Of a DNA stretch of 64,000 nt, positions 42,875 to 57,899 are shown one piece after another (the stretch's first letter is position 1; every line of letters starts with the position of its first letter). The DNA is from Limosilactobacillus caviae. Lineage in GTDB: Bacteria > Bacillota > Bacilli > Lactobacillales > Lactobacillaceae. Below the pieces are notes generated by a model. It had not been told where the DNA came from. It did not search any database and saw nothing but the letters and a program-made list of their open reading frames with translations. Location of the stretch: NCBI RefSeq assembly GCF_014635905.1, contig NZ_BMDS01000001.1:1-64000 (forward strand). The letters run 5' to 3'. A program made the position numbers and the translations under genes.

Positions 42875-45800
42875 TTACTTACCAGTATTCCGTCTTCGTA
42901 AAGTACCACTAAATCCAAACATGCTTGCGATCGAAGCTAAGCCTAGTCCAACTAGGGAAGCGGTCTTATTAGTATCATTACCAGTTTGTGGCAATGCTTT
43001 CTTAGTAGTTTGCTCATTAGTGTTGGCTGCTACATTTTGCAAATTACTATTTACATTTTCGGTTGCTGAAACGTTATTACTAATTGTAGTGTTAGTCTTG
43101 CTTCCAGCATTAGTAATCTGTTTACCAGTTCCGGTGTTCGTGTTTCCGCCATTATTAGTTTTACTATTATCAGGGGTTGTGGCATTAACATGAACAGTAA
43201 CCGTTATTTCATAGCTCGTTCCATCTGGGAAGTGAACCGCAACAACACCAGTATGATCACCCGGTGTTGAAACATCTGGCTTTTGTTGCCAAGTGTAGGT
43301 AGTACCGTCTGGCATTTGGTCCTTGTTCTTAATTGCATCGGCAGGGTTAGGGAGTTTACCTTGGTCAGTCGTAATTTCTTGACCTTCTGGAGCTGGAACA
43401 TGGACGGCAACCGTAACGGTATCTTTCGAGCCGTCTGGATAATTAATTGTAATTGTCTCATCATGCGTACCAGGTGTCTTTACGTCTTGGGCGACCTTAT
43501 CAGGATCATTCCAGGTGTACTTGGTACCATCCGGCAAGTCACTCTTGTTCTTGATACCTTCTGCAGCATCCGGAACCTTACCTTCTGGAGTTGTTATTGG
43601 TTGAGCTTCCGGCGTGTATTTATCGGCATCAGTAGTTGGTTCTGTAACCGTAACAGTAGTTGTTACCTTATCTTGTGAACCATCTGGGTAGTTAACGTTG
43701 ACTACAACTGTCTGCGTACCAACCTTCTCTGGATCTGGCGTTACGTCCCAGGTGTACTTGGTGCCATCTGGCAAGTCACCCTTGTTCTTAATACCATCAG
43801 CTGGATCTGGAACCTTATCACCCTTTGTAATCGTAATTGGGTTACCTTCTGGAGTGTACTTATCGGCATCAGTAGGGTTGTTATAGTCGACAGAAGTTGG
43901 GATCTTGATTGGCTCATGTCCCGGCACTGTAATAGTTACACTGGTTGGTTGGTCACCCTTCTTGTTTGGATCTGGTTGATCACCTGGAGTCCAAACAACC
44001 TTGGTACCACTTGGTAACTTCTCTGGATCCTTGATTGTATCTGTTGGACCAGTTGGGTTAGTAACATGATCCTTAGTTGCTACCACAACGATTGTGGCAG
44101 TTATAGCATCACTAGAACCATCAGTGTATGTTACCGTTACTGGAACAGTTACCACTTGGGTAGTAGCATCACTTGGTACTTTTGCAGTAATTGTCCCAGT
44201 TGCTGGATCAACAGTTACCCAATCAGGAACATTAGAACCTGGAACAATCTTGTAGGTAACATCCCCAGCGGCAGGCTTGTCACCATTGTAAGTTACATCA
44301 GTCTTTGTCGTCTGACCTGGTGTTGTAACAACTTCGGGGTAAGATGGCGTATACTTGTCGGCATCTGTTGGCATTGTCGGGTTAGTTACGTGAATTGTAA
44401 CAGGTACTTTATCCTTTGAACCATCTGGATAAGTTACGACAATAACTGCTGGCTTATCACCTGGTATTGTTGTATCTGGAGTATCCTTCCAAGTGTATTT
44501 AGTACCATCTGGTAGGTCTCCTTTATTCTTAATACCATCTGATGGATCTGGAGTTTCACCCTGCTTTACAGTAATATCTTGACCTTTCGGCATGTATTTA
44601 TCTGCATCTGTTGGTGTAGTTGCAGAAGGAGTGTAGTTGATATCAACAGTAATATCCTTTGTATCTGGAGTTACTGTAGCTTGAGCAACGCTTACTGGAT
44701 CAGCAGTGTAACCCTTAACTTCTGGAGCATTGTATTCTGCCCAAGTTCCTGTTGTATTAGTACCGTCAACTACATGCCAAGCATTCCAAGTAATCTTATT
44801 GGTTGCGGGATCTTTGTAGCCTGCATTACCTTCCTTATCCTTACGCGTAAACTTCACGGTTTGGATTTGGGTTTGTGGGTCCGCATTCGGAATGTGACTA
44901 ATGATTGTCCGCGTTACTTCACGATACATGTCGTCATTTGTACCATTCCACTTAATTGGCTCATCAGAATCCTTGTGGTAACTGATAGTTACCGTTTGGT
45001 TTGGCGTGTTAGCATTTACAGTTTCAGCAGCAATACTTGCCGGGGTGGCAACATAGCCCTTAACAGCTTTTGGCGTAAAGGCATTCCAAGTTCCTGTTGA
45101 TGCATTCAAATCACCAGCAACATGCCATACGGTGTTGTAAATAACCTTGCCAGTTGCGACATCTTTGTAACCACTGTTACCGTCTTTATCTTCATTTGTG
45201 AAGTGAACAGTTTGGTTAGTAGTTGTCTTCGTGCCATCCAGGTTGTCAACAATGATTGTCCGTGTCACATACCGGTTCATCTCATCGTTAACACCATCTT
45301 TGCCCGGATTATATGGTACTGGTGTTTGATTGTCAGTAACGATAACATTAACCGGAACCTCATCAGTTGAGTGATCAGGGTACGTTACAATAACCGTTCC
45401 AGTAACTGTCCCCGACTTGCTTACGTCTGGTGTTGTCTTCCAAGTATAAGTTGTTCCTTCTGGCAAGTCACCAGTATTACTAATACCTTCCTTAGCAGCT
45501 GGAACTTTACCAACAATCGTATGAACATCTTGACCTTCTGGCGTGTACTTATCAGCATCAGTTTCAGCTGGCGTATTCTTTGTGTAATTAATTGTTACTG
45601 TTTGATTTTGGGTTTCTGCGTTTACAGTCTTTTCTGCAACACTTGCCGGATTAGCAACATAGCCCTTAATAACTTCTGGAGTATAGGCATCCCATGTTCC
45701 TGTTGACGCATTTAAATCACCAGCAACATGCCATGCTGCGTTATAAGTAATCTCACCAGTTACGGGGTCTTGATACCCACTGTTACCGTCTTTATCTTTA

Positions 45801-48800
45801 TTTGTGAAGTGAACGGTTTGGTTCTTGGTTACCTTAGTACCGTCTGGGTTATTAACAACAATTGTCCGTGTTACATAACGGTTCATGTCGTCGTTAACTC
45901 CCTCTTTACCTGGGTTGTATGGTACTGGCGTTGAGCCTTCTTTTACATAAGTAATGGTATCAGTAATATTAGCAGAGTCTGCATTTACAGCTGTACTTGC
46001 TATTTCAGTTGACTTGCTACCATTTACGTAACTGTCATAACCCTTAGCCTGAGCAACAGTGTAAGCTGGAATTTCGTAAGTAGATACACCGTTTACTAAC
46101 TTAGAATCTTTTGGACCTTGCCATGCATTCCAAGTAATGTCACCAGTTACTAAGTCTTTAATTCCTGTGCGTTGGAATGGAACAGTAATCGTTCTTACAA
46201 CTGTCTTATCAGCTTCAGTCTTACCAGCTGGAACTTCGTAAATTGTTTGAGTTACTTCACGGTAAGTATCTGAATTAGTCTTATCAACAGGGACATTTTC
46301 AGTATTGTGTTCAACCTTGTAAGTTACAGGCGCTGGGTCATCTGAACCAAATGTGTATGAACTTATAACACGCTGGTTTGGCACTAATTTCCAATTAGTT
46401 GGAACATTACCAGCAACATCAACAGATACTTCCTGACCAGTTTTACCAGATACATTGTAATGTGAACCAACTTGCTTACCAGTTTGAGAATCAACGTAAG
46501 TAATCACTAAAGTATGTTCATTAGCAGTGTAAGTTACATTAACAGTCTCATTTTGTGAATCTGGAGTAATAGTTGCGGAAGCTGGAACGTATTGCTTGCC
46601 ATTAATATTTTCAATCGTTGCCCCAGTTGCAGTAGCAGTGTAGCCAGGTTTAGTCACTTCAAATTGTGGGAAGCTTGTTACTTCTTGACCCTCATTGTTT
46701 TTGCCAGCTACCCAAGCAGTATAAGTTACTTGTTGTCCTTCTGGCTTAGCCAAATTAGTAATCTTAGCACGACTATAAATTACATGTTGAACAACTGGTG
46801 CGTCTTGTCCTTCAACAGTAATAGTACGCGTGATATCACGGTAAATATCATGATTATCCTTGTTATCTACACCTTGATCAACCTTAATTACATTTACAGC
46901 AACTGGAACATCAAGATAGCTGCCATCAGTAAAGTTAATTCTAACTGTTGCTGGAGCTTGTGCGTTTGCTTTTTCAAGGCTTGGTAATGTTTGCCAATCA
47001 ATTGAAGAAATTTCTGAGTTATGTGCTTGAGTTAAATCACTAGTATTTACAAGTTTGCCAGCATCCCCTAAAGCAGCCTTTAAATCATTAACATCTGAGT
47101 TAACGCTTGGAATAGTACCGTTAGCTTCAGCACCATAAATGTAAACAAATGGGAATGGGTGTTGAGCTTTAGGACCCTTACCAAAAATTGGCCAGTTTAC
47201 TTTAGAAGTATCTACTGTTGCAGAATACATTGGGTAAACGTACGGACTACCTTGGGTGTTATCTTGACCAGTGTAGGTAATAGTCTTAGTACCATTGTTC
47301 TTGTCTGATACTAAACTGGATGGTTGACCCTGACCAGTAACACCAGGAATACCAAATTCAGCGCCCATTGGAGTCCAAATTGAAGAAATTTCGCTTACTG
47401 GAACACTTTGCGGTGCATTTACAGTAACACCAACTGGATTATCACCTGTCTGGGTAAGTTCATAAGCAGTACCATCGGAGTTTAAGGTATAGATATATGG
47501 CTTGCTGTAATTTTGTCCGCCTTCGTAGTAACTAAGCTTAAAGTTTTCAATTACAGGAGCACCAATAATGTTCTTATCTGAAGTCTTGTGCGTAATTACA
47601 TTTTTAGCATGTAAGCTGTAACTGTGTCCCTTGTCGTCAATAATCGTTACATCTTGATTATCACTTACGGCAACTGGGATAGTAACAGTTTCTGTGGTGC
47701 CATCTGGATAAGTTACTTTAGCTGTACCAGTGGTTGTTCCTGGCTTAGAAGTGTCTGGAGCAGTTATCCAATTTGCTCCTGATGGATAACCTTCAACTGG
47801 AGTAGAACCGTCATTGTTAAGGTTAGCAATACCTTGAGTAGCTTCTGGAACTTGACCAACAGTGGTGCTAATTGGTTTAATCTCTGGGTTAGCATTAACA
47901 ACAACATTTGTTGGAACATTGTCTTGGGATCCATCTGGATAAGTTACAACAACTACAGCTGGCTTTTCACCTGGCGTGGTAGTATCTGGAGTCGTCTGCC
48001 AAGTGTACTGAGTTCCATCTGGTAAAGTATTCTTATTACTAATGCCTTGTGAAGCATCTGGCGTTTCCCCTACTTTAGTAGAAACTTGCTGACCTTCAGG
48101 GGTGTATTGATCAGCATTAGTTGTAATATCAACTGAACTTGATGGAATAGTAATATTCAAGTATGTTGGTTGACCATTAGCAGCATCGTCTTTAAACGCA
48201 ATCTTAACTACTCCGCCGTTGCCATTTTCATCAGGCTTTGTTGCCCAAGTAGTAGTAGCAATTTCATTAGCTGGAATATTGTTGTCTACTAATTGATCAA
48301 ATTGTTCACTGGTTAAATCAGAGCCTAAAGCAATTTTCACTGGAGTTGATACGGTCTTAGCACCAGCACCCTTAGCATCAATAGTGAATGAGTTAGTAGT
48401 TACAGTACCATTCTTTGAGCCTAAGATATTCTTTGCCACATCATTATTAGTGAAATCAATATTAACACTGGTAGAAATTTGCTTACCAGCAACAGTTGCC
48501 GTTTCTACAGTAGTATCAGGGGTAGTAGTCCAGCTTACCGTTGAAGGATCAATAGTGATTGGCATAGCAGTAGTTGAAAGCTTACCGTCAGTTAATTTAT
48601 ATCCTTGAGCAGTCACAACATTAGCTGGAGCGAGGACTTGTGAATTCTCACTAGTCTCATGAGCATTAAGGCTAGAAGCGTCAACTGTAGTTACAACTGC
48701 ACCATTTTCGCCCCAAATAACTGTTTGACCCGCCTTAGTTACAATAACCGGAACTGTTGTCTCATCAGTGCTCTTATCTGGGTAAGTTACAGTTACAGGA

Positions 48801-51661
48801 ACATTGTATGCGCCAGGGGTTACGTCAATGCTTGGGTTCACTGTAACAACACCAGTTGATGGATCGACATTTGCCCAACTTGGTGTATTCGTACCAGTTG
48901 TAAAAGTGGATCCAGCAGGCATGGTTGTTTCCTTACCATCTTGTCCTACAAAGTTAGGGTCAGCAGTCGCACTTTGTCCTTGTTCTACAGTTACTGAATT
49001 ATAAGATGGAGTGTAAGTATCTGCCATTGGTACGGTAATATTCAATGGAATATTAGCAAAATCGATCGATCCATCTGTATAAGTAACCTTAGCCCAAGCT
49101 GACTTATCGCTAGTCTTCAAATTGCCAGTTGGGTTAGTTGGAGCAGCTTGACCATTCATCAAGTTATTCCATTCAGTTGCATCAGTAGCTGCATCATACC
49201 AAGTTACAGACTTAATAGCAGAAAGATCTGGTGTTATGGTTCCACCGCTAGTACGTAAACCAGAAATACCGTCCTTGGCAGTTAAGTCATTTAAGGTTTG
49301 TCTAGTATTACCATCAATAGTCTTGACTACTGGTTGATATTGATCAGAATCAGTTGGCTTAGCTACTTCTTCTAAAGAACTACCCATTGCAACTCTTTGT
49401 GGAGTCCACCAGTTGAAGTTATTCAAGAGCCGGTTTAAGTATGGAGTTTCATATTTTACACCGTCAGCTGGTTGTCCTTGAGTAACCGTTCCATCAATAA
49501 ATTGATAACTATTAAGTCCAGCTTGGTTTTGAGCAAGATTTACTTGACCGTTTGAGTGTAAAAACTTAATCTCACCATTCTTATTTTGTCCTCGAGCGTT
49601 CCCAGCTTGAGTAAAGCCAGAAATAGCGTTATCACCCCAGTTGTTCTGAGTTTGAATATTTTTGAGATACCAGTAATCAGATGCACCTGTTCCTTTATTT
49701 CCTTCGTCCCATTGAGCAAATGGCAATTTACCACCCGCACTAGAAACAGTTACATTATTATTTTGATTTTCAAGACGAAGTAAAGTACCTGTTTGGTTTC
49801 CTGTACGTTGGAAGTTTACATACTTAGGATTGGTAATAGTAACATGGTTATAACTATTATTTGTACCAGTTCCACCGCCCCACATAGTTACCAATCCATA
49901 TTTAGGGGTATTAGTGAAGAACCCTTTCGTAGCCGATTGAGATTGTTGAGCACTATCTTGTAAGTCAAGCGTAGCACCTTCATGAACATTCAAATCCCAC
50001 TTAGCACCTAAACCACTACCTGAACCAAATGAGATTAATGGTGTAGTAGATTGATTATTATCACCAGTACGAACAATTGTTAACTTACCTTGATTATCTA
50101 AAACATTGGAATCAGCATTAGTAATATTAGCAGCAAAACCAACACCTAATGAAATAGGAGCAAAGTGATAACCATCATAATTAGTTACACCATTGGCACC
50201 ACTACCATCATTACTTTGTTTAGTATTAATATTAACAACGCCAGTTTTACCAATGTTTAAGTTACCAGCCCAAATAGCCATTGAGTGACCATCAGCCATG
50301 TTAGCAATTAAGTTACCATCTACTTGAACAGTACCAGTAATAGCGCTGTTGACAAGCATCCCTTTAACATCTTTAGATTGACCATTTAAGGTTACGGTTG
50401 CACCTTGTTGAATATCAATTGCTGGAGCAGTATCATTTGTTTCATCTTCAACTTTGGCCCGCAAAATGTTGCCACCAGCGTTTTGATCGTTGTTGGTTTT
50501 CGCACTGCTTACGTTAAAGACGGTATTAGTACCTTGGGCAAAAATAATGTGTGATGCTGATACAGCACTTGAATAGTTATAAAGCTGATTTCCCTTAACG
50601 TTTACGGCCTCACAAGTAATGTTGTTATTACCCTTAAAGGTTACCGTAGTGTATGGGTTATCAGTGGTTTGTTGCGCCATTGTAGTGTTGTAGAAGGCAC
50701 CATTTTTAACATCGGCAGTTACGTTTTCAAATGTAACTTTGTTGTTAGTTAAAAGATCAGTCCTTATGTCGTCTCCACCCATATAAATTGGGCTAAACGC
50801 ACCACCAAGAGTAGACCATGAATTATCATAGCCATCAGCATTAATAGTTAAATTCTTGAAAGCAATATCCCACGGATTACTATCTTTTTGGTTGTTAGTA
50901 GTAAAACTAAGGTAATTAGCACCAAAATTAATAGCGTGACCTTGACCATCAATATCTAATCCTCCAGAAATATTAGAACCAGTTAAGTTCATCTTTCCAG
51001 AGTTAACTAGTGGTTGTGGACGATTAATGCCGTTAACATTTGTACCCTTATTAGCGACAGTAATATCACTAGTTAATTTAATTGTACCGATATTAGAGTC
51101 GTTTAAAGCATTAACTAATCCTTGCCAGTCCGCTACTTCTTGTTGTTGAGTACCACGTAAAGTTTTTTGTTGATCCTCTAAAGTAGTAGTAGCATTAGTT
51201 GAAGCAGCCGATGGCATAGTAAACAAAGCTTGATTTAATCCATCTTTTACTGCCTGTTCATATTTATCTGCCATGGGACTTGCGATAGTAGTCTCTGTTG
51301 GCTTTACTGTATCTTCCTTTTGAGCAGGAGTAGCAGCTTGACTCTGTTCATTTTGAGTATCAGTATTCACTACCGTACGGTTCGATGCAGGTACTGTACT
51401 CAAATCCTGTGTTACAGTAACAGGCGTCTTTATTGGAACCACACTCGAATTAGAATCAGTATCACCATTTGTTGATGATTCACTAGCTGGTTGTGTATTG
51501 TTTGCTGATGTAGTATCGGTATCAGCAGACGCATTCATCCCCATAAATGTAAATCCAATTAAGACAGAAGCAACACCAACCGTAAGTTTCTTAATCGCAA
51601 ACCGTTGCTTTTTCGGTTCTTGCTTACGGAATTGTTCCTGTCGATTATTTTTCGATAACAT
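42875..51661 (-). CDS. 2928-residue LPQTG-anchored Rib/Mub adhesin (adhesin 5)
   Basis: ATG at 51661 after GAGAGGGG. YSIRK-type signal (KKQRFAIKKLTVGVASVLIG) to about residue 46; Thr/Ser/Gln-rich linker to about 175; beta-helix head to about 745, ending LLNNFNWW; a Rib-like domain with an insertion (about 774-880); RibLong (880-980); HKT module (about 984-1180); two Rib; second HKT module (about 1340-1587). Then five Mub_B2-like units and one MucBP-like unit interleaved with Rib domains (about 1594-2330), a RibLong plus about five Rib repeats, an Asn/Thr-rich linker, LPQTG near 2890 and an Arg-rich tail. The upstream region (A14 tract between -35 and -10) suggests variable expression. Confidence 0.95.
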   Translation of the reverse strand: MLSKNNRQEQFRKQEPKKQRFAIKKLTVGVASVLIGFTFMGMNASADTDTTSANNTQPASESSTNGDTDSNSSVVPIKTPVTVTQDLSTVPASNRTVVNTDTQNEQSQAATPAQKEDTVKPTETTIASPMADKYEQAVKDGLNQALFTMPSAASTNATTTLEDQQKTLRGTQQQEVADWQGLVNALNDSNIGTIKLTSDITVANKGTNVNGINRPQPLVNSGKMNLTGSNISGGLDIDGQGHAINFGANYLSFTTNNQKDSNPWDIAFKNLTINADGYDNSWSTLGGAFSPIYMGGDDIRTDLLTNNKVTFENVTADVKNGAFYNTTMAQQTTDNPYTTVTFKGNNNITCEAVNVKGNQLYNYSSAVSASHIIFAQGTNTVFNVSSAKTNNDQNAGGNILRAKVEDETNDTAPAIDIQQGATVTLNGQSKDVKGMLVNSAITGTVQVDGNLIANMADGHSMAIWAGNLNIGKTGVVNINTKQSNDGSGANGVTNYDGYHFAPISLGVGFAANITNADSNVLDNQGKLTIVRTGDNNQSTTPLISFGSGSGLGAKWDLNVHEGATLDLQDSAQQSQSATKGFFTNTPKYGLVTMWGGGTGTNNSYNHVTITNPKYVNFQRTGNQTGTLLRLENQNNNVTVSSAGGKLPFAQWDEGNKGTGASDYWYLKNIQTQNNWGDNAISGFTQAGNARGQNKNGEIKFLHSNGQVNLAQNQAGLNSYQFIDGTVTQGQPADGVKYETPYLNRLLNNFNWWTPQRVAMGSSLEEVAKPTDSDQYQPVVKTIDGNTRQTLNDLTAKDGISGLRTSGGTITPDLSAIKSVTWYDAATDATEWNNLMNGQAAPTNPTGNLKTSDKSAWAKVTYTDGSIDFANIPLNITVPMADTYTPSYNSVTVEQGQSATADPNFVGQDGKETTMPAGSTFTTGTNTPSWANVDPSTGVVTVNPSIDVTPGAYNVPVTVTYPDKSTDETTVPVIVTKAGQTVIWGENGAVVTTVDASSLNAHETSENSQVLAPANVVTAQGYKLTDGKLSTTAMPITIDPSTVSWTTTPDTTVETATVAGKQISTSVNIDFTNNDVAKNILGSKNGTVTTNSFTIDAKGAGAKTVSTPVKIALGSDLTSEQFDQLVDNNIPANEIATTTWATKPDENGNGGVVKIAFKDDAANGQPTYLNITIPSSSVDITTNADQYTPEGQQVSTKVGETPDASQGISNKNTLPDGTQYTWQTTPDTTTPGEKPAVVVVTYPDGSQDNVPTNVVVNANPEIKPISTTVGQVPEATQGIANLNNDGSTPVEGYPSGANWITAPDTSKPGTTTGTAKVTYPDGTTETVTIPVAVSDNQDVTIIDDKGHSYSLHAKNVITHKTSDKNIIGAPVIENFKLSYYEGGQNYSKPYIYTLNSDGTAYELTQTGDNPVGVTVNAPQSVPVSEISSIWTPMGAEFGIPGVTGQGQPSSLVSDKNNGTKTITYTGQDNTQGSPYVYPMYSATVDTSKVNWPIFGKGPKAQHPFPFVYIYGAEANGTIPSVNSDVNDLKAALGDAGKLVNTSDLTQAHNSEISSIDWQTLPSLEKANAQAPATVRINFTDGSYLDVPVAVNVIKVDQGVDNKDNHDIYRDITRTITVEGQDAPVVQHVIYSRAKITNLAKPEGQQVTYTAWVAGKNNEGQEVTSFPQFEVTKPGYTATATGATIENINGKQYVPASATITPDSQNETVNVTYTANEHTLVITYVDSQTGKQVGSHYNVSGKTGQEVSVDVAGNVPTNWKLVPNQRVISSYTFGSDDPAPVTYKVEHNTENVPVDKTNSDTYREVTQTIYEVPAGKTEADKTVVRTITVPFQRTGIKDLVTGDITWNAWQGPKDSKLVNGVSTYEIPAYTVAQAKGYDSYVNGSKSTEIASTAVNADSANITDTITYVKEGSTPVPYNPGKEGVNDDMNRYVTRTIVVNNPDGTKVTKNQTVHFTNKDKDGNSGYQDPVTGEITYNAAWHVAGDLNASTGTWDAYTPEVIKGYVANPASVAEKTVNAETQNQTVTINYTKNTPAETDADKYTPEGQDVHTIVGKVPAAKEGISNTGDLPEGTTYTWKTTPDVSKSGTVTGTVIVTYPDHSTDEVPVNVIVTDNQTPVPYNPGKDGVNDEMNRYVTRTIIVDNLDGTKTTTNQTVHFTNEDKDGNSGYKDVATGKVIYNTVWHVAGDLNASTGTWNAFTPKAVKGYVATPASIAAETVNANTPNQTVTISYHKDSDEPIKWNGTNDDMYREVTRTIISHIPNADPQTQIQTVKFTRKDKEGNAGYKDPATNKITWNAWHVVDGTNTTGTWAEYNAPEVKGYTADPVSVAQATVTPDTKDITVDINYTPSATTPTDADKYMPKGQDITVKQGETPDPSDGIKNKGDLPDGTKYTWKDTPDTTIPGDKPAVIVVTYPDGSKDKVPVTIHVTNPTMPTDADKYTPSYPEVVTTPGQTTKTDVTYNGDKPAAGDVTYKIVPGSNVPDWVTVDPATGTITAKVPSDATTQVVTVPVTVTYTDGSSDAITATIVVVATKDHVTNPTGPTDTIKDPEKLPSGTKVVWTPGDQPDPNKKGDQPTSVTITVPGHEPIKIPTSVDYNNPTDADKYTPEGNPITITKGDKVPDPADGIKNKGDLPDGTKYTWDVTPDPEKVGTQTVVVNVNYPDGSQDKVTTTVTVTEPTTDADKYTPEAQPITTPEGKVPDAAEGIKNKSDLPDGTKYTWNDPDKVAQDVKTPGTHDETITINYPDGSKDTVTVAVHVPAPEGQEITTDQGKLPNPADAIKNKDQMPDGTTYTWQQKPDVSTPGDHTGVVAVHFPDGTSYEITVTVHVNATTPDNSKTNNGGNTNTGTGKQITNAGSKTNTTISNNVSATENVNSNLQNVAANTNEQTTKKALPQTGNDTNKTASLVGLGLASIASMFGFSGTLRRRNTGK

Positions 51662-51893: not shown

Positions 51894-51932
51894 AAAAAAT
51901 GACCGTTAGCATTTTAAAAATACTAACAGCCA
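51894..51932 (-). terminator. Terminator of the flavinylation operon
   Basis: Minus-strand hairpin TGGCTGTTAG / CTAACGGTCA with G-U pairs followed by a T6 run, directly after the apbE stop codon. Confidence 0.8.
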
Positions 51933-51950
51933 TTGTTAATTATAAAGTTA

Positions 51951-52874
51951 TTAAAAACCAACATTCATCATTGATTCATCATTATGAATAAAGATAGCGC
52001 CGCGGTTGCCGGGACGTGACTCCCAGCCTTCAATTGGTTCACCATTGAAAAATAGGCGTTTCGCTTCAATTTCACCCATTACCGATTGATCAGTAAAAAC
52101 TGTCACACTACTTAGGTCTGTTTCAAGGGGGTATCCTGTTCGCGGATCAAGCAAATGGTGATAACGGTGACCGTTTTTAATTAAAAAGCGCTCATAAATG
52201 CCTGATGTCACTGCTGAACATGCTGGCTCACGAACTGTTGCTAGGTTTTCACCCCGATGCAGCTGCGGGTCTTGGACGCCGATAATCCACTGTCCATCAT
52301 CACGACGCGGCGAATTACCAACGAAAAGCAGATTTCCACCAAGATCAATAATCCCTGCAGGCACCCCTGCTTCTTGCCAAAAGTCACGAATCCGATCGGC
52401 AATGTAACCCTTCGCAATTCCGCCAAGGTCAAGTTCCATCCCCGGTTCTTCTAATAAAACAGTCCGTGTATCACGATTTAATAATACCTTATAAGGATCA
52501 ATTAACTTCAGTCGTTCCTTAATCTCCGCATCACTTGGGACCCGTGCACCTTCAAAGCCAATCTTCCATAGTTTAACTAATGGTCCGATTAAAGCGTTAA
52601 AGCCAAAATTTTCTCGACTATATTTTACGGCTAATTCAATCAGGTCAAAGGTCGTTTGTGATACCATTTTAGGCATTTTGCCCGCACCATGATTCACTGA
52701 CATTACCTCTGACTGATCACGGTTAACCGTCAGCTGGTCTTCATAATGGTCGATTAAGTCCATTGATTTTTTTAATAACGAAAAATACTCGTTACCAAAA
52801 ATCGTCAAATTTATCCGTGTTCCTAAGGCATGATGAGTCATTACATGTCGCTGCGCCATCAATTCATTATTCAT
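51951..52874 (-). CDS. apbE: ApbE-type FAD:protein FMN transferase, cytosolic
   Basis: 307 residues. ApbE enzymes move the FMN moiety of FAD onto a Ser/Thr of the motif DxxS/TGAT/S in a target protein, with Mg2+. Family marks visible: LDLGGIAKGYIADR (about residues 152-165), IIDLGGNLLFVGNSP (about 175-190) and HHLLDPRTGYP (about 236-246). There is no signal peptide or lipobox, so it should act in the cytosol, unlike the lipoprotein forms that serve extracytosolic targets. The ATG is 2 bp after the stop of the upstream gene and has no strong ribosome site of its own, so translation is probably coupled. The upstream gene carries four matching target motifs, making it the obvious substrate. Confidence 0.93.
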   Translation of the reverse strand: MNNELMAQRHVMTHHALGTRINLTIFGNEYFSLLKKSMDLIDHYEDQLTVNRDQSEVMSVNHGAGKMPKMVSQTTFDLIELAVKYSRENFGFNALIGPLVKLWKIGFEGARVPSDAEIKERLKLIDPYKVLLNRDTRTVLLEEPGMELDLGGIAKGYIADRIRDFWQEAGVPAGIIDLGGNLLFVGNSPRRDDGQWIIGVQDPQLHRGENLATVREPACSAVTSGIYERFLIKNGHRYHHLLDPRTGYPLETDLSSVTVFTDQSVMGEIEAKRLFFNGEPIEGWESRPGNRGAIFIHNDESMMNVGF

Positions 52875-52876
52875 AA

Positions 52877-54124
52877 TTAGTTTTCGGATGCACCTGTTGT
52901 GGCATCTGCCTCTTCATCATTAGCGTCTACGCTACCTGCGTCGGATGCGCCTGTTGTAGCGTCTGATCCATCAGCTTCCTCAACTGGGGTGGCAGTAACT
53001 GCACTAGTGTTATCAGTGCTATCGTTACTGTCATCGCTTGATTCAGAAGCGCCTGTCGATGCGTCTACGCTATCTTCTGCGTTTTCATCATTACCAGCAT
53101 CTTCATGTTTAGAAGCCCCAGTGTTCCCATCAGTACTCCATGCACCATTTTCAAAGAGGTTAAGAATGTACTCAACACTGCCTGTAAATTCGATTGTACC
53201 GAGGTAATGACCATTGATGTCACGAAGAGCATAATATTGAATCAATGAACGGTGACCATTCATCCATAATGGACGGGTAACAACATCCTTTTCACCATTT
53301 CGGAAGCTGTTAATAATCTTCATTACCGTAGGAACAGCCATTGGCGGATGGCATTCTTGAACAGTTTCGCCAAGAGAAGCTACGTTACGAACGTGTTCCC
53401 GGTTTGGCTTGTCAGAATACCATGCAAAGTGGTCAGTGCTATCAATCAGGTCGATCTCAAATGGAATCGTGCTAAAGATTTGTTGAACTTCCTTTAACGT
53501 TAACCGACCTGTTGGGAAGTTAATATATGCTTCACTAATCGTTGGTTGTTTAACGGACATCTCCAGTCCCTCCTCATTTACTTTTTCAAAAATTTGAATA
53601 TATTCCACAAAATGGGTAAAGCTTTCTTCAAGACTGTCCCGCATTTCAGGATTAATCAAACGGCCATCCTTAGAGAATGAATGACTAGCATTACCAATCA
53701 ATACTTCATTCCCTGGTAATAAGTTAGTATCACAATCTGGGGAAATCAAAATTTGACGCATTTGTACTTGTGACCTAGCAGAAGCTTGCCGACCATACGA
53801 TACCCCAACAACCATTGCCGGTTTATGGGATAAAACATTCGTCTTGTAAGAAAGCCACTCAACCGCGCTCTTTAATGCTGCCGGAATTCCGTGGTCATAT
53901 TCAGGAGTGGAGAAGATAATTCCGTCTGCTGTTTTGATCTTTTGCTTTAACTTCCAGACCTCTGTTTGTTCTGAAAGCGGCGTATCAACACTAAAAGGCG
54001 GCAATTGGTTGATCTCGTAAATCTCAATATCAGCCATTTGGCGGAAATGTTTCTTCATATACTTAAGTAAAATTCGGTTATATGAGAACTTCGCATTTGT
54101 TCCAACTAGTGCAAGAATTTTCAT
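52877..54124 (-). CDS. NAD(P)H-FMN reductase / PAS-like fusion with four flavinylation motifs
   Basis: 415 residues, no signal peptide. Residues 1-190 form a flavodoxin-like NADPH-dependent FMN reductase domain, paralogous to the upstream gene (GTNAKFSYNR near 8; STPEYDHG...LKSAVEWLSY near 73-95). Residues of about 205-320 resemble the PAS domain found in DUF438-type proteins (PTGRLTL...ECHPP...YALRDINGHYLGTIE). The tail from about 325 is Asp/Ser/Ala/Glu-rich and holds DGNTGAS, DASTGAS, DATTGAS and DATTGAS; the predicted acceptor threonines are 335, 357, 391 and 410. Each fits the ApbE target consensus, and apbE follows 2 bp downstream. The ATG overlaps the previous stop by one base (TAATG). 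Inference: a cytosolic electron carrier loading up to four covalent FMNs next to its own NAD(P)H-oxidising domain. Confidence 0.85.
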   Translation of the reverse strand: MKILALVGTNAKFSYNRILLKYMKKHFRQMADIEIYEINQLPPFSVDTPLSEQTEVWKLKQKIKTADGIIFSTPEYDHGIPAALKSAVEWLSYKTNVLSHKPAMVVGVSYGRQASARSQVQMRQILISPDCDTNLLPGNEVLIGNASHSFSKDGRLINPEMRDSLEESFTHFVEYIQIFEKVNEEGLEMSVKQPTISEAYINFPTGRLTLKEVQQIFSTIPFEIDLIDSTDHFAWYSDKPNREHVRNVASLGETVQECHPPMAVPTVMKIINSFRNGEKDVVTRPLWMNGHRSLIQYYALRDINGHYLGTIEFTGSVEYILNLFENGAWSTDGNTGASKHEDAGNDENAEDSVDASTGASESSDDSNDSTDNTSAVTATPVEEADGSDATTGASDAGSVDANDEEADATTGASEN

Positions 54125-54696
54125 TACTTATCCGCCTCCTTCTTTTCAGCAATCATGCGGTTAATCGCCTTAGCATAGTGCTTAAACTCACGCATACATT
54201 TTTCTAAGAAATGGATCGTCATTTCATTAGTAATATTACCATCTTCATCAATGATATTTGCGGCATCACTCATAAAGAATTCTTCATTTTGGAAAATATA
54301 AGCATTTACCCCTGGTGAGATTAAAATATCCCGTAATTGAACTTGTGAACGAGATGAACCCTGCTCATGGGTAGATGCACCAATAATCATCACAGGCTTG
54401 TCCTGCAATGGGTGAACTTCATATGAAAGCCATTCAACTAGACTCTTAAGCGCAGACGTAATTGAGTGGTTGTATTCGGGACTAGCAATAATAACAGCAT
54501 CGGCACTTGCAACACGACGATCAATATCGGCAACAACCTCAGGGATCTTACCCTTGTAATCTTCATTAAACATTGGTACTTGACGAATATCAATCACATC
54601 AATATCATCATCACTAAAATGACGGGCCATAAATTCTAGCAACATCCGGTTATAAGAATGGTTGGCATTGGACCCGGCAATTGCAGCAATTTTCAA
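54124..54696 (-). CDS. NADPH-dependent FMN reductase family protein
   Basis: About 190 residues from a TTG start at 54696, chosen because AAAGGAAG sits 7 bp upstream and the product then begins MKIAAIAGSN like its paralogue. A longer frame starting at 54735 would add a non-conserved leader. Flavodoxin-like fold: GSNANHSYNR (about residues 8-17) for the FMN phosphate and SPEYNHSITSALKSLVEWLS (about 78-97). Likely reduces FMN or quinone-type acceptors with NAD(P)H. First gene of a three-gene operon with tight coupling, so it may deliver electrons to, or form a heteromer with, the flavinylated paralogue. Confidence 0.85.
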   Translation of the reverse strand: MKIAAIAGSNANHSYNRMLLEFMARHFSDDDIDVIDIRQVPMFNEDYKGKIPEVVADIDRRVASADAVIIASPEYNHSITSALKSLVEWLSYEVHPLQDKPVMIIGASTHEQGSSRSQVQLRDILISPGVNAYIFQNEEFFMSDAANIIDEDGNITNEMTIHFLEKCMREFKHYAKAINRMIAEKKEADK

Positions 54697-56419: not shown

Positions 56420-57867
56420 TTATTTCTTAAGGTATTCATTAATATTGTGCGCAGCGTTTCGTCCAGAATAAAATGCATAACCAACACAGGTTCCTGGCAT
56501 ATTAGGACCATATGTATCACCAACTAAACCTGATGCATCATTACCAGCCGCATAAAGCCCTTTAATCGGCAAATAGTTATTATCTAGAACTTCATTAGCT
56601 GGGCTTACTTTCAAGCCACCCATCGTACAAAAAGCACCAACATTTAGCTTAAATCCGTAGAATGGACCAGTTGTTACTTTCTGTAGATATTGCGGATCTT
56701 TGCCAAAGTCATCATCTGTTCCTTTGTCAGCAAAATCATTATAACGAGTAATTGTTGCTTGTAATTTATCTTCAGGCACACCCATCTGTCTTGCTAAATC
56801 AGAAATTGTGTCCGCCTTAAAAATAAATGACTTTTTAGCTGCAATTGCCTGATCTAATTCTTCTTGGAGTTTATCCATCTTTTGACCGCGACGAACATAA
56901 ATTCCTAGGCCCATAAAGTTTCCCTTGTTGATCATTCGGTCAATTACTGCTTGGTCTAGAATACTAAACACATTGGATTGTGTGTACAATGCGTTACCCG
57001 CCAGTGAGAAATTATAGACAACTTCTTCATTAACAAAACGTTCACCATTTTCATTTACCCACAATAAGGGCTGTTGTCCAGCTACTGTATTCATTTGTGA
57101 TGGCATCATTTTGTATGAAGGCTCGTCTTCATCTTTTAAATAACCGCCAAATAGCATTGCCATCCCGAGGCCATTTTTCTGTGCGCCAATATGCCAGGCC
57201 ATCTCTAAGCCGTCTCCAGTTCCTTTTCCTGAACTTACTGGTACACATCGTAACTGGTTTCCTCTTTAATCAAGCGCGGATTATTCAAGTAGCCACCAGT
57301 TGCTAATACCACAGCCCGTGTTTCTACTTTATAACGTTCTTTAGTCTTGTTGTCTTTAATTGTTACTTCAAATGTACCATCGCTCTTCTTTACCAAATTA
57401 ACAGCACGAGCAAGTGTTAATACTTCACCACCATTTTGCTTAAATTTCGGTTGGAGGGCATCATGAATTACCCCAAATCCCATTCCTTTGTAAATATGCC
57501 AAGTTGCCTCTCCAGCGCCCATTGCTTGAACGCCTTCATATTCAACACCCTGGTCATGCAGCCACTGGACATTCTCTGCACTACTATTGATATAGTTGCG
57601 CCAAATACGGGAGTCTGCTTTATATTTTGAATAATTCACTTCTTCACTAAGTACATCCGTTGCTTTAATTTCAATCCCCTTTTCCTTCTGTAAATAGGAA
57701 TTAATTGCAAACAGCCCTTCTGTGTAGTTCGTACTTCCGCCGGTTGTTCTCCCTTTCTCTAATAAAAGAACCGAATGTCCGTCCTGAACCGCGGTTAATC
57801 CAGCAGCCATCCCTGCAGCTCCAGAACCAACGACAATAACATCATAGTATCTATGCTTATTTCTCAT
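56420..57867 (-). pseudogene. FAD-dependent fumarate reductase/flavocytochrome-c-like protein, frameshifted
   Basis: Two adjacent frames make one protein. The N-terminal part (57867 to 57235) starts MRNKHRYYDVIVVGSGAAGM with a GxGxxG FAD fold and GGSTNYTEG. It ends prematurely ...SYDVYQ-stop. The C-terminal part continues in another frame as VPVSSGKGTGDGLEMAWHIG and contains YAAGNDASGLVGDTY and PGTCVGYAFYSGRNAA. Restoring one C to the CC at 57240-57241 joins them into about 482 residues, the normal size for a soluble FAD_binding_2 reductase without its own FMN-binding domain. The ATG at 57867 is preferred over GTG 57876 because AAAGGG lies 8 bp upstream. No slippery sequence is seen at the junction, so this is a disabling indel or an assembly error rather than obvious recoding. 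Members of the family reduce fumarate, urocanate, acrylates and similar compounds; the substrate here is unknown. Confidence 0.85.
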
Positions 57868-57899
57868 TATTTTCACCCTTTGTATTTTTCTATATTTTT

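Follow-up and report, generated by a model that had tools for sequence, protein, structure and literature searches.

A cytosolic FMN reductase-PAS protein of Limosilactobacillus caviae with four predicted flavinylation sites in a disordered tail

The window analysed here (the whole stretch of 64,000 nt, positions 1 to 64,000 of contig NZ_BMDS01000001.1 of Limosilactobacillus caviae) contains, at 52877-54124 on the minus strand, a gene that raises a question: does a cytosolic FMN reductase carry several covalently attached flavins, and, if so, to what end? The ORF is intact at these coordinates and encodes a protein of 415 amino acids with three parts. The first part, a flavodoxin-like FMN_red domain (residues 1-182; 53579..54124, minus strand), is identified by Pfam (FMN_red, residues 1-146, E 2e-33), by an AlphaFold2 model, by Foldseek (relatives ArsH, ChrR, and FerB), and by phmmer (relatives ChrR 3svl and FerB 3u7r). 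The second part, a PAS_10 domain (about residues 200-325; 53150..53527, minus strand), is identified by Pfam (residues 214-313, E 2e-14), by the model, and by the PDB relatives 2qkp and 3cax. The third part, recognised from sequence and model, is an acidic, disordered tail of 89 residues, rich in A, D, S, T, and G (residues 327-415; 52880..53146, minus strand). In the model, the FMN_red and PAS domains mostly have pLDDT values above 70 and residues 333-415 have values below 50; the pTM is only 0.48, and the placing of the domains is therefore uncertain. The protein has no signal peptide and no Pfam match to FMN_bind at E 0.01, in agreement with an earlier, sequence-only reading of the locus, which had described a cytosolic FMN reductase with a PAS-like domain and without an FMN_bind fold. 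We also considered, and rejected, a hidden FMN_bind fold in the tail: Pfam gives no match to this fold in 60 of 60 proteins of the family (E 0.001), and the tail is disordered in the model.

The gene string and its predicted flavinylation sites

The tail holds four D-x-x-T-G-A-S motifs, all encoded on the minus strand: D332GNTGAS (53111..53131), D354ASTGAS (53045..53065), D388ATTGAS (52943..52963), and D407ATTGAS (52886..52906). In 200,000 shuffles of the 89-residue tail, there were never more than two motifs, as compared to the four observed. According to the published rule for D-x-x-[S/T]-G-A-[S/T], the flavin acceptor is the final residue of the motif (PMC12052999), and the predicted acceptors are thus Ser338, Ser360, Ser394, and Ser413, in place of Thr335, Thr357, Thr391, and Thr410, which the sequence-only reading had taken to be the modified residues.

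The gene for the flavin transferase, apbE (51951..52874, minus strand; Pfam ApbE, E 1e-68), starts two bases past the stop codon of the FMN_red-PAS gene. Its ApbE domain scores 232 bits, above the curated cut-off of 25.6, and is the single ApbE match in the whole 2.3-Mb genome. No signal peptide or lipobox is visible at the ApbE N-terminus when read by eye, and flavinylation is therefore expected in the cytosol of this cell. ORF, motifs, and gene order all bear out the earlier description of four ApbE motifs in an acidic, flexible tail next to apbE. By analogy with known ApbE targets, the neighbouring ApbE very probably attaches the four predicted covalent flavins to the tail. On the 3' side of apbE there is a weak candidate for a terminator-like hairpin (51898..51934, minus strand), from a scan that gave 4 sites versus 2.3 expected.

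Directly upstream of the fusion gene lies a second FMN_red gene, which the sequence-only reading had omitted, encoding a small, FRedA/HcrA-like subunit (54124..54696, minus strand; Pfam FMN_red, E 4e-34). Homology begins at 54696, where a likely TTG start is preceded by an AGGAAG ribosome-binding site; the ORF listing places the start further upstream, at GTG 54735. The TAA of the small FMN_red gene and the ATG of the fusion gene share one base. The window thus contains two consecutive FMN_red genes, as in FRedA/B; the architecture of the fusion protein and the order of the three genes are established at the level of sequence.

Two observations on ApbE and its targets in this genome may be added. 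At the region aligned to D...T, which we take to be the usual metal-binding residues of ApbE, the window ApbE reads GEIEAKRLF (that is, E and K), and Limosilactobacillus ApbEs of the window's motif class are similar there. The genome's only match to FMN_bind is a 100-aa protein encoded elsewhere, on contig C6 (L033:7311-7613), that contains DGVTGAS, has no visible signal peptide, and is likely to be the other target of the genome's single ApbE; the gene beside it presumably encodes endonuclease III, as judged from how it reads.

Conservation of the motifs, spread of the family, and variant architectures

In a profile scan of named genomes, the FMN_red-PAS protein was found in 79 of the best 80 loci (more loci exist), which include loci from Limosilactobacillus, Lactiplantibacillus, Lentilactobacillus, Companilactobacillus, Lacticaseibacillus, Enterococcus, Tetragenococcus, Vagococcus, Oceanobacillus, Gracilibacillus, and Lederbergia. 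The sequence-only reading had proposed a search for FMN reductases with repeated motifs and apbE neighbours; among the relatives is a 448-aa version with four motifs in Lactiplantibacillus plantarum (L135). Both FMN_red and PAS_10 were matched in all 60 aligned proteins (the window protein and 59 of the 79). A small FMN_red gene lies directly upstream, on the same strand and within 300 nt, in 77 of the 79 relatives, and apbE lies inside the locus in 53 of 79, with flanks of at most 5 kb and some contigs shorter. In genome family f4 the FMN_red-PAS protein is common, with matches in 93 of the 147 genomes sampled; in seven or more of the 93, the match is confined to the FMN_red portion of a longer enzyme, most often about 800 aa long. 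Spread through the phylum was considered and rejected, since at E 1e-60 the profile matches just 2 of the 398 genomes sampled, one of them the genome of the window.

The motifs are concentrated in the tails and are conserved there. The tails of 78 related proteins (the 79 minus a 1020-aa fusion, L094) contain 207 strict motifs versus 0.5 expected (shuffled mean), and there are none outside the tails. The 79 proteins from the best 80 loci have zero (3 proteins), one (14), two (19), three (20), four (20), five (1), or six (2) strict motifs each, that is, at least one in 76 of 79; the remaining three have close variants such as DATSSAS or DADASAS, and with relaxed motifs each of the 79 has at least one and the maximum is seven. 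Within Limosilactobacillus, the 30 best matches (window copy included) have three to five strict motifs each, and the mean frequency of the majority residue among these orthologues is 97.9% for the D, G, A, and S of the motifs, as compared to 60.3% for the rest of the tail, 89.0% for FMN_red, and 92.5% for PAS. The motifs are conserved and the linker drifts: this is the opposite of motif drift in a linker of constant composition, the pattern that the sequence-only reading had named as speaking against flavinylation.

In variant architectures, the tail can persist without PAS or outside the fusion. In L249 and L250 (Limosilactobacillus) and in L256, PAS has been lost and the tail kept, with FMN_red followed directly by a tail that has five, three, and two motifs, respectively; only one of these ten motifs is strict, the other nine being D-x-x-A-[SG]-A-S. 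PAS is repeated in an 882-aa FMN_red protein (L035:3497-6145), which has three PAS_10 matches with motif clusters around them, and the 1020-aa protein of Secundilactobacillus collinoides (L094:5558-8620) is an FMN_red-PAS-tail-FAD_binding_2-FMN_bind fusion. At six loci (L071:5554-6105, L072:4244-4795, L145, L220, L222, and L225), a PAS protein of 183-244 aa stands free, without FMN_red, and bears one to three motifs in its tail; a further free PAS protein (L221) has near-motifs of SSAS form, and the free PAS gene adjoins apbE in L221 and L222. No motifs are present in the free PAS_10 proteins of L224 and L226 or in a 140-aa one in this genome (L077).

Tails with the variant motif D-x-x-A-[SG]-A-S are found at twelve loci (L037, L038, L059, L068, L069, L070, L117, L239, L249, L250, L251, and L256), and in most genomes with such tails ApbE lacks Arg at the position of window Arg273. 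Among 88 distinct ApbEs, this Arg is absent in 16 of 19 for which at least one motif has Ala or Gly at position 4, as compared to 7 of 69 others. When relatedness is taken into account, a tree gives five independent contrasts for the motif, with Arg unchanged in about 4.5, and three contrasts for Arg, with the motif going the same way in about 2.3. Arg273 as a determinant of motif position 4 is therefore only a lead: the raw association is strong, and the independent contrasts are too few to prove it.

Relation to known flavin systems

Four kinds of described system come close to this one. The first is a class of FMN_red proteins from Lactococcus: these have a C-terminal extension with one to two motifs, are flavinylated as seen on gels, and lose flavinylation on Ala substitution (Huang et al., 2024, PMC11334425), and the class is described as having an unstructured extension and co-localised apbE, mostly in Firmicutes. 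The window protein shares FMN_red, an extension, D-x-x-[ST]-G-A-[ST], and a neighbouring apbE with this class and differs from it, as described, in having four motifs rather than one to two; the words 'PAS' and 'heterodimer' are absent from the main text of PMC11334425. The second kind comprises multi-flavinylated FMN_bind proteins, which likewise have several ApbE sites per protein; there the sites are in repeated, folded domains that are generally predicted to be extracytosolic (PMC11334425), whereas here they are bare motifs in the disordered tail of a protein without signal peptide. The third is the cytosolic ApbE of Klebsiella pneumoniae, which acts on fumarate reductase (cited in PMC12052999) and, like the window ApbE, has no signal peptide and has a cytosolic target, although the target enzyme differs. 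The flavinylated FMN_red class and the PAS_10-FMN reductase fusions noted below (PMC4500961) make the earlier statement that no such system had been described too strong.

The fourth kind consists of two-subunit FMN reductases. In HcrB and CrdB, the large subunit contains FAD_binding_2 and FMN_bind, a combination absent from the window protein; CrdAB of Vibrio ruber is, we assume, a system of the HcrAB kind. Relatives of that kind in our searches have FAD_binding_2, often with FMN_bind, instead of PAS and tail. HcrA and HcrB, of the HcrAB hydroxycinnamate reductase of L. plantarum, form a heterodimer (PMC10295242), and the likeness to the window genes lies in a small FMN_red subunit, a large FMN_red-containing subunit, and NADH as the (here predicted) donor.

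Closest in composition is the FRedA/B-LjPAS system of Lactobacillus johnsonii (Valladares et al., 2015, PMC4500961), which likewise has a two-subunit FMN reductase and PAS_10, fused or separate. The FRedA and FRedB genes are 12 bp apart, and LjPAS is a 28-kDa protein encoded by an independent gene; homologues of LjPAS are reported to be fused to FMN reductase in other species, L. plantarum among those named. FRedA/B binds FMN only as the heterodimer, with two sites and a KD of about 2 uM, and the purified dimer contains 0.58 FMN. NADH is its only electron donor, and it passes single electrons to O2 with formation of H2O2. LjPAS slows the formation of active FRedA/B and is treated as a regulator, a brake on assembly; anaerobic conditions lower the expression of its gene more than threefold. 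The words 'ApbE' and 'covalent' are absent from the available text of that paper, in which LjPAS is described as purified from E. coli BL21; the tail of LjPAS, if present, was therefore presumably bare.

A likely counterpart of LjPAS, to judge by size and gene layout, is a free PAS protein in the genus of genome G085, which we infer to be Lactobacillus in the strict sense. In this genus, the free PAS protein is matched in 62 of 75 genomes (E 1e-20), in two or more of which (G313 and G344) only a more distant PAS protein accounts for the match; the free PAS protein is about 28 kDa (26 to 31, 22 measured). Among the 30 loci that match best by BLAST, three strict motifs are found in 23, two in three, and one in another three; the remaining locus, whose tail looks frameshifted, has none. 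The counterparts of LjPAS thus mostly have three motifs. ApbE is present in 60 of 60 good-quality genomes of the genus. In G085 itself, separate FMN_red genes of 178 and 184 aa are 12 bp apart; an ApbE gene follows after about 2 kb, whereas the PAS gene is some 95 kb distant.

Flavinylated FMN_red extensions (PMC11334425), PAS_10-FMN reductase fusions (PMC4500961), and cytosolic ApbE (PMC12052999) have thus each been published. In the literature searched (few subscription journals, no supplements), we found no flavinylated PAS or FMN_red-PAS protein and no text that joins the three; 'FMN reductase' is absent from the main text of PMC8238504. What seems to be new is the number of sites and their conservation: a tail has from one to seven motifs or near-motifs, in Lactobacillales and in some Bacillales. 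A PAS protein that stands free with several sites, tails that persist where PAS has been lost, and the D-x-x-A-[SG]-A-S form of the motif in some species likewise seem to be new. The prediction that LjPAS, known as a regulator, is flavinylated also appears to be new. Taken together, these features allow a tentative joint reading, to which we give slightly less than even weight: PAS_10 and the acidic tail form a dedicated, mobile carrier of multiple FMNs in the lactobacillale cytosol, and LjPAS is flavinylated too. Were this so, the carrier would usually be fused to a subunit of a heterodimeric NADH:FMN reductase and would be a free 28-kDa protein in the genus of G085, and LjPAS would be a redox protein with several covalent flavins, studied after expression in E. 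coli without its own ApbE and hence presumably unmodified. The literatures on flavinylated FMN reductases and on H2O2-forming FRedA/B-PAS would be joined into one conserved system, and multi-flavinylation would be placed in the cytosol, a location for which the covalent bond is not explained by keeping flavin from loss outside the cell. The H2O2 of lactobacilli has been argued to matter for the host (PMC4500961).

Possible roles of the tail flavins

The reading that we favour, with moderate confidence, is that the gene string encodes a cytosolic FRedA/B-type NADH dehydrogenase whose tail FMNs, loaded by ApbE, pass electrons on. By analogy, the small FMN_red protein and the FMN_red domain of the fusion would pair as a heterodimer like FRedA/B (HcrA/HcrB) and use bound FMN to oxidise NADH, and the ApbE of the gene string would place FMN on the Ser that ends each motif. 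Carried beside PAS on a flexible arm some 80 residues long, the tail FMNs may take electrons from the FMN_red sites and pass them to separate acceptors: probably O2, giving H2O2 as with FRedA/B, and, in some species, soluble FAD_binding_2 reductases. Such an arm would keep the local concentration of FMN high around the reductase, with several FMNs on offer to acceptors. The large FMN_red subunit of relatives extends into FAD_binding_2 and often FMN_bind; such fusions suggest that electrons flow from NADH through FMN_red and covalent FMN to an acceptor flavoenzyme, and we therefore favour the tethered-flavin relay.

The neighbourhood of the genes points to FAD_binding_2 acceptors in some loci only. 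FAD-FMN_bind genes are divergent to the gene string in 7 of 11 Companilactobacillus loci, and in L051 a fumarate-reductase-like gene, 61% identical to that of this genome, lies directly upstream of the FMN_red pair; only 12 of the best 80 named loci have a protein or gene of the FAD_binding_2 type, and the one near the gene string of the window appears to be frameshifted. One fumarate-reductase-like enzyme is intact in this genome (contig C4), its gene lying next to one that we take to encode fumarase. Fumarate reductase as the fixed acceptor is rejected: none of nine family f4 genomes has the enzyme (E 1e-40) and seven of the nine have FMN_red-PAS, so that O2 or other acceptors must serve there. 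A fumarate-reductase-like enzyme is also present in five genomes without any ApbE match (G051, G055, G071, G078, and G082).

Other points also count against the relay. The tail, disordered in the model, gives no structural proof for electron transfer; LjPAS is reported to hold back FRedA/B assembly rather than to carry electrons (PMC4500961); and there are motif-less free PAS_10 proteins (L224, L226, and L077). The 'electron wire' of the sequence-only reading is only one possibility: a disordered tail does not line up cofactors in a fixed chain, and the role of a swinging arm or of cofactor retention suits such a tail equally well.

Retention of cofactor, in which a tail FMN would plug the weak FMN site of the FMN_red pair and extra motifs would provide redundancy, seems to us unlikely. 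The idea is drawn from AlphaFold dimers of the Lactococcus proteins by Huang et al. (PMC11334425), and the weak affinity and incomplete occupancy reported for FRedA/B (PMC4500961) are what it would predict; it would, however, have to accommodate tails with as many as six strict motifs (seven if near-motifs are counted) where the heterodimer has two FMN sites, and a genus, that of G085, in which the tail is on a separate PAS protein.

It is quite unlikely, in our estimate, that the covalent FMN docks on or in PAS, reports redox state or oxygen, and tunes FMN_red assembly and H2O2 output. The slowing of FRedA/B formation by LjPAS and the anaerobic repression of its gene (PMC4500961) favour such a sensor, as do the six free PAS proteins that have tail motifs and no FMN_red part, and the three genomes that keep the tail without PAS (L249, L250, and L256) argue against it. 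Most improbable is that the motifs are accidental and unmodified in a compositionally biased linker: the tail composition is skewed towards A, D, S, T, and G, but chance is refuted at the sequence level by shuffling and by the far greater conservation of motif residues than of linker.

Two further genes of the window were noted. Upstream of the gene string, at 56420-57876 (minus strand), an FAD_binding_2 gene is present in two frames (ORFs 57235-57876 and 56420-57202), apparently through a frameshift; uninterrupted counterparts are 487 aa in L040 and 483 aa in L041. Downstream of apbE, 42875-51661 (minus strand) encodes a 2928-aa surface protein with, as read by eye, a YSIRK-like signal region, long repeats, and an LPQTG anchor.
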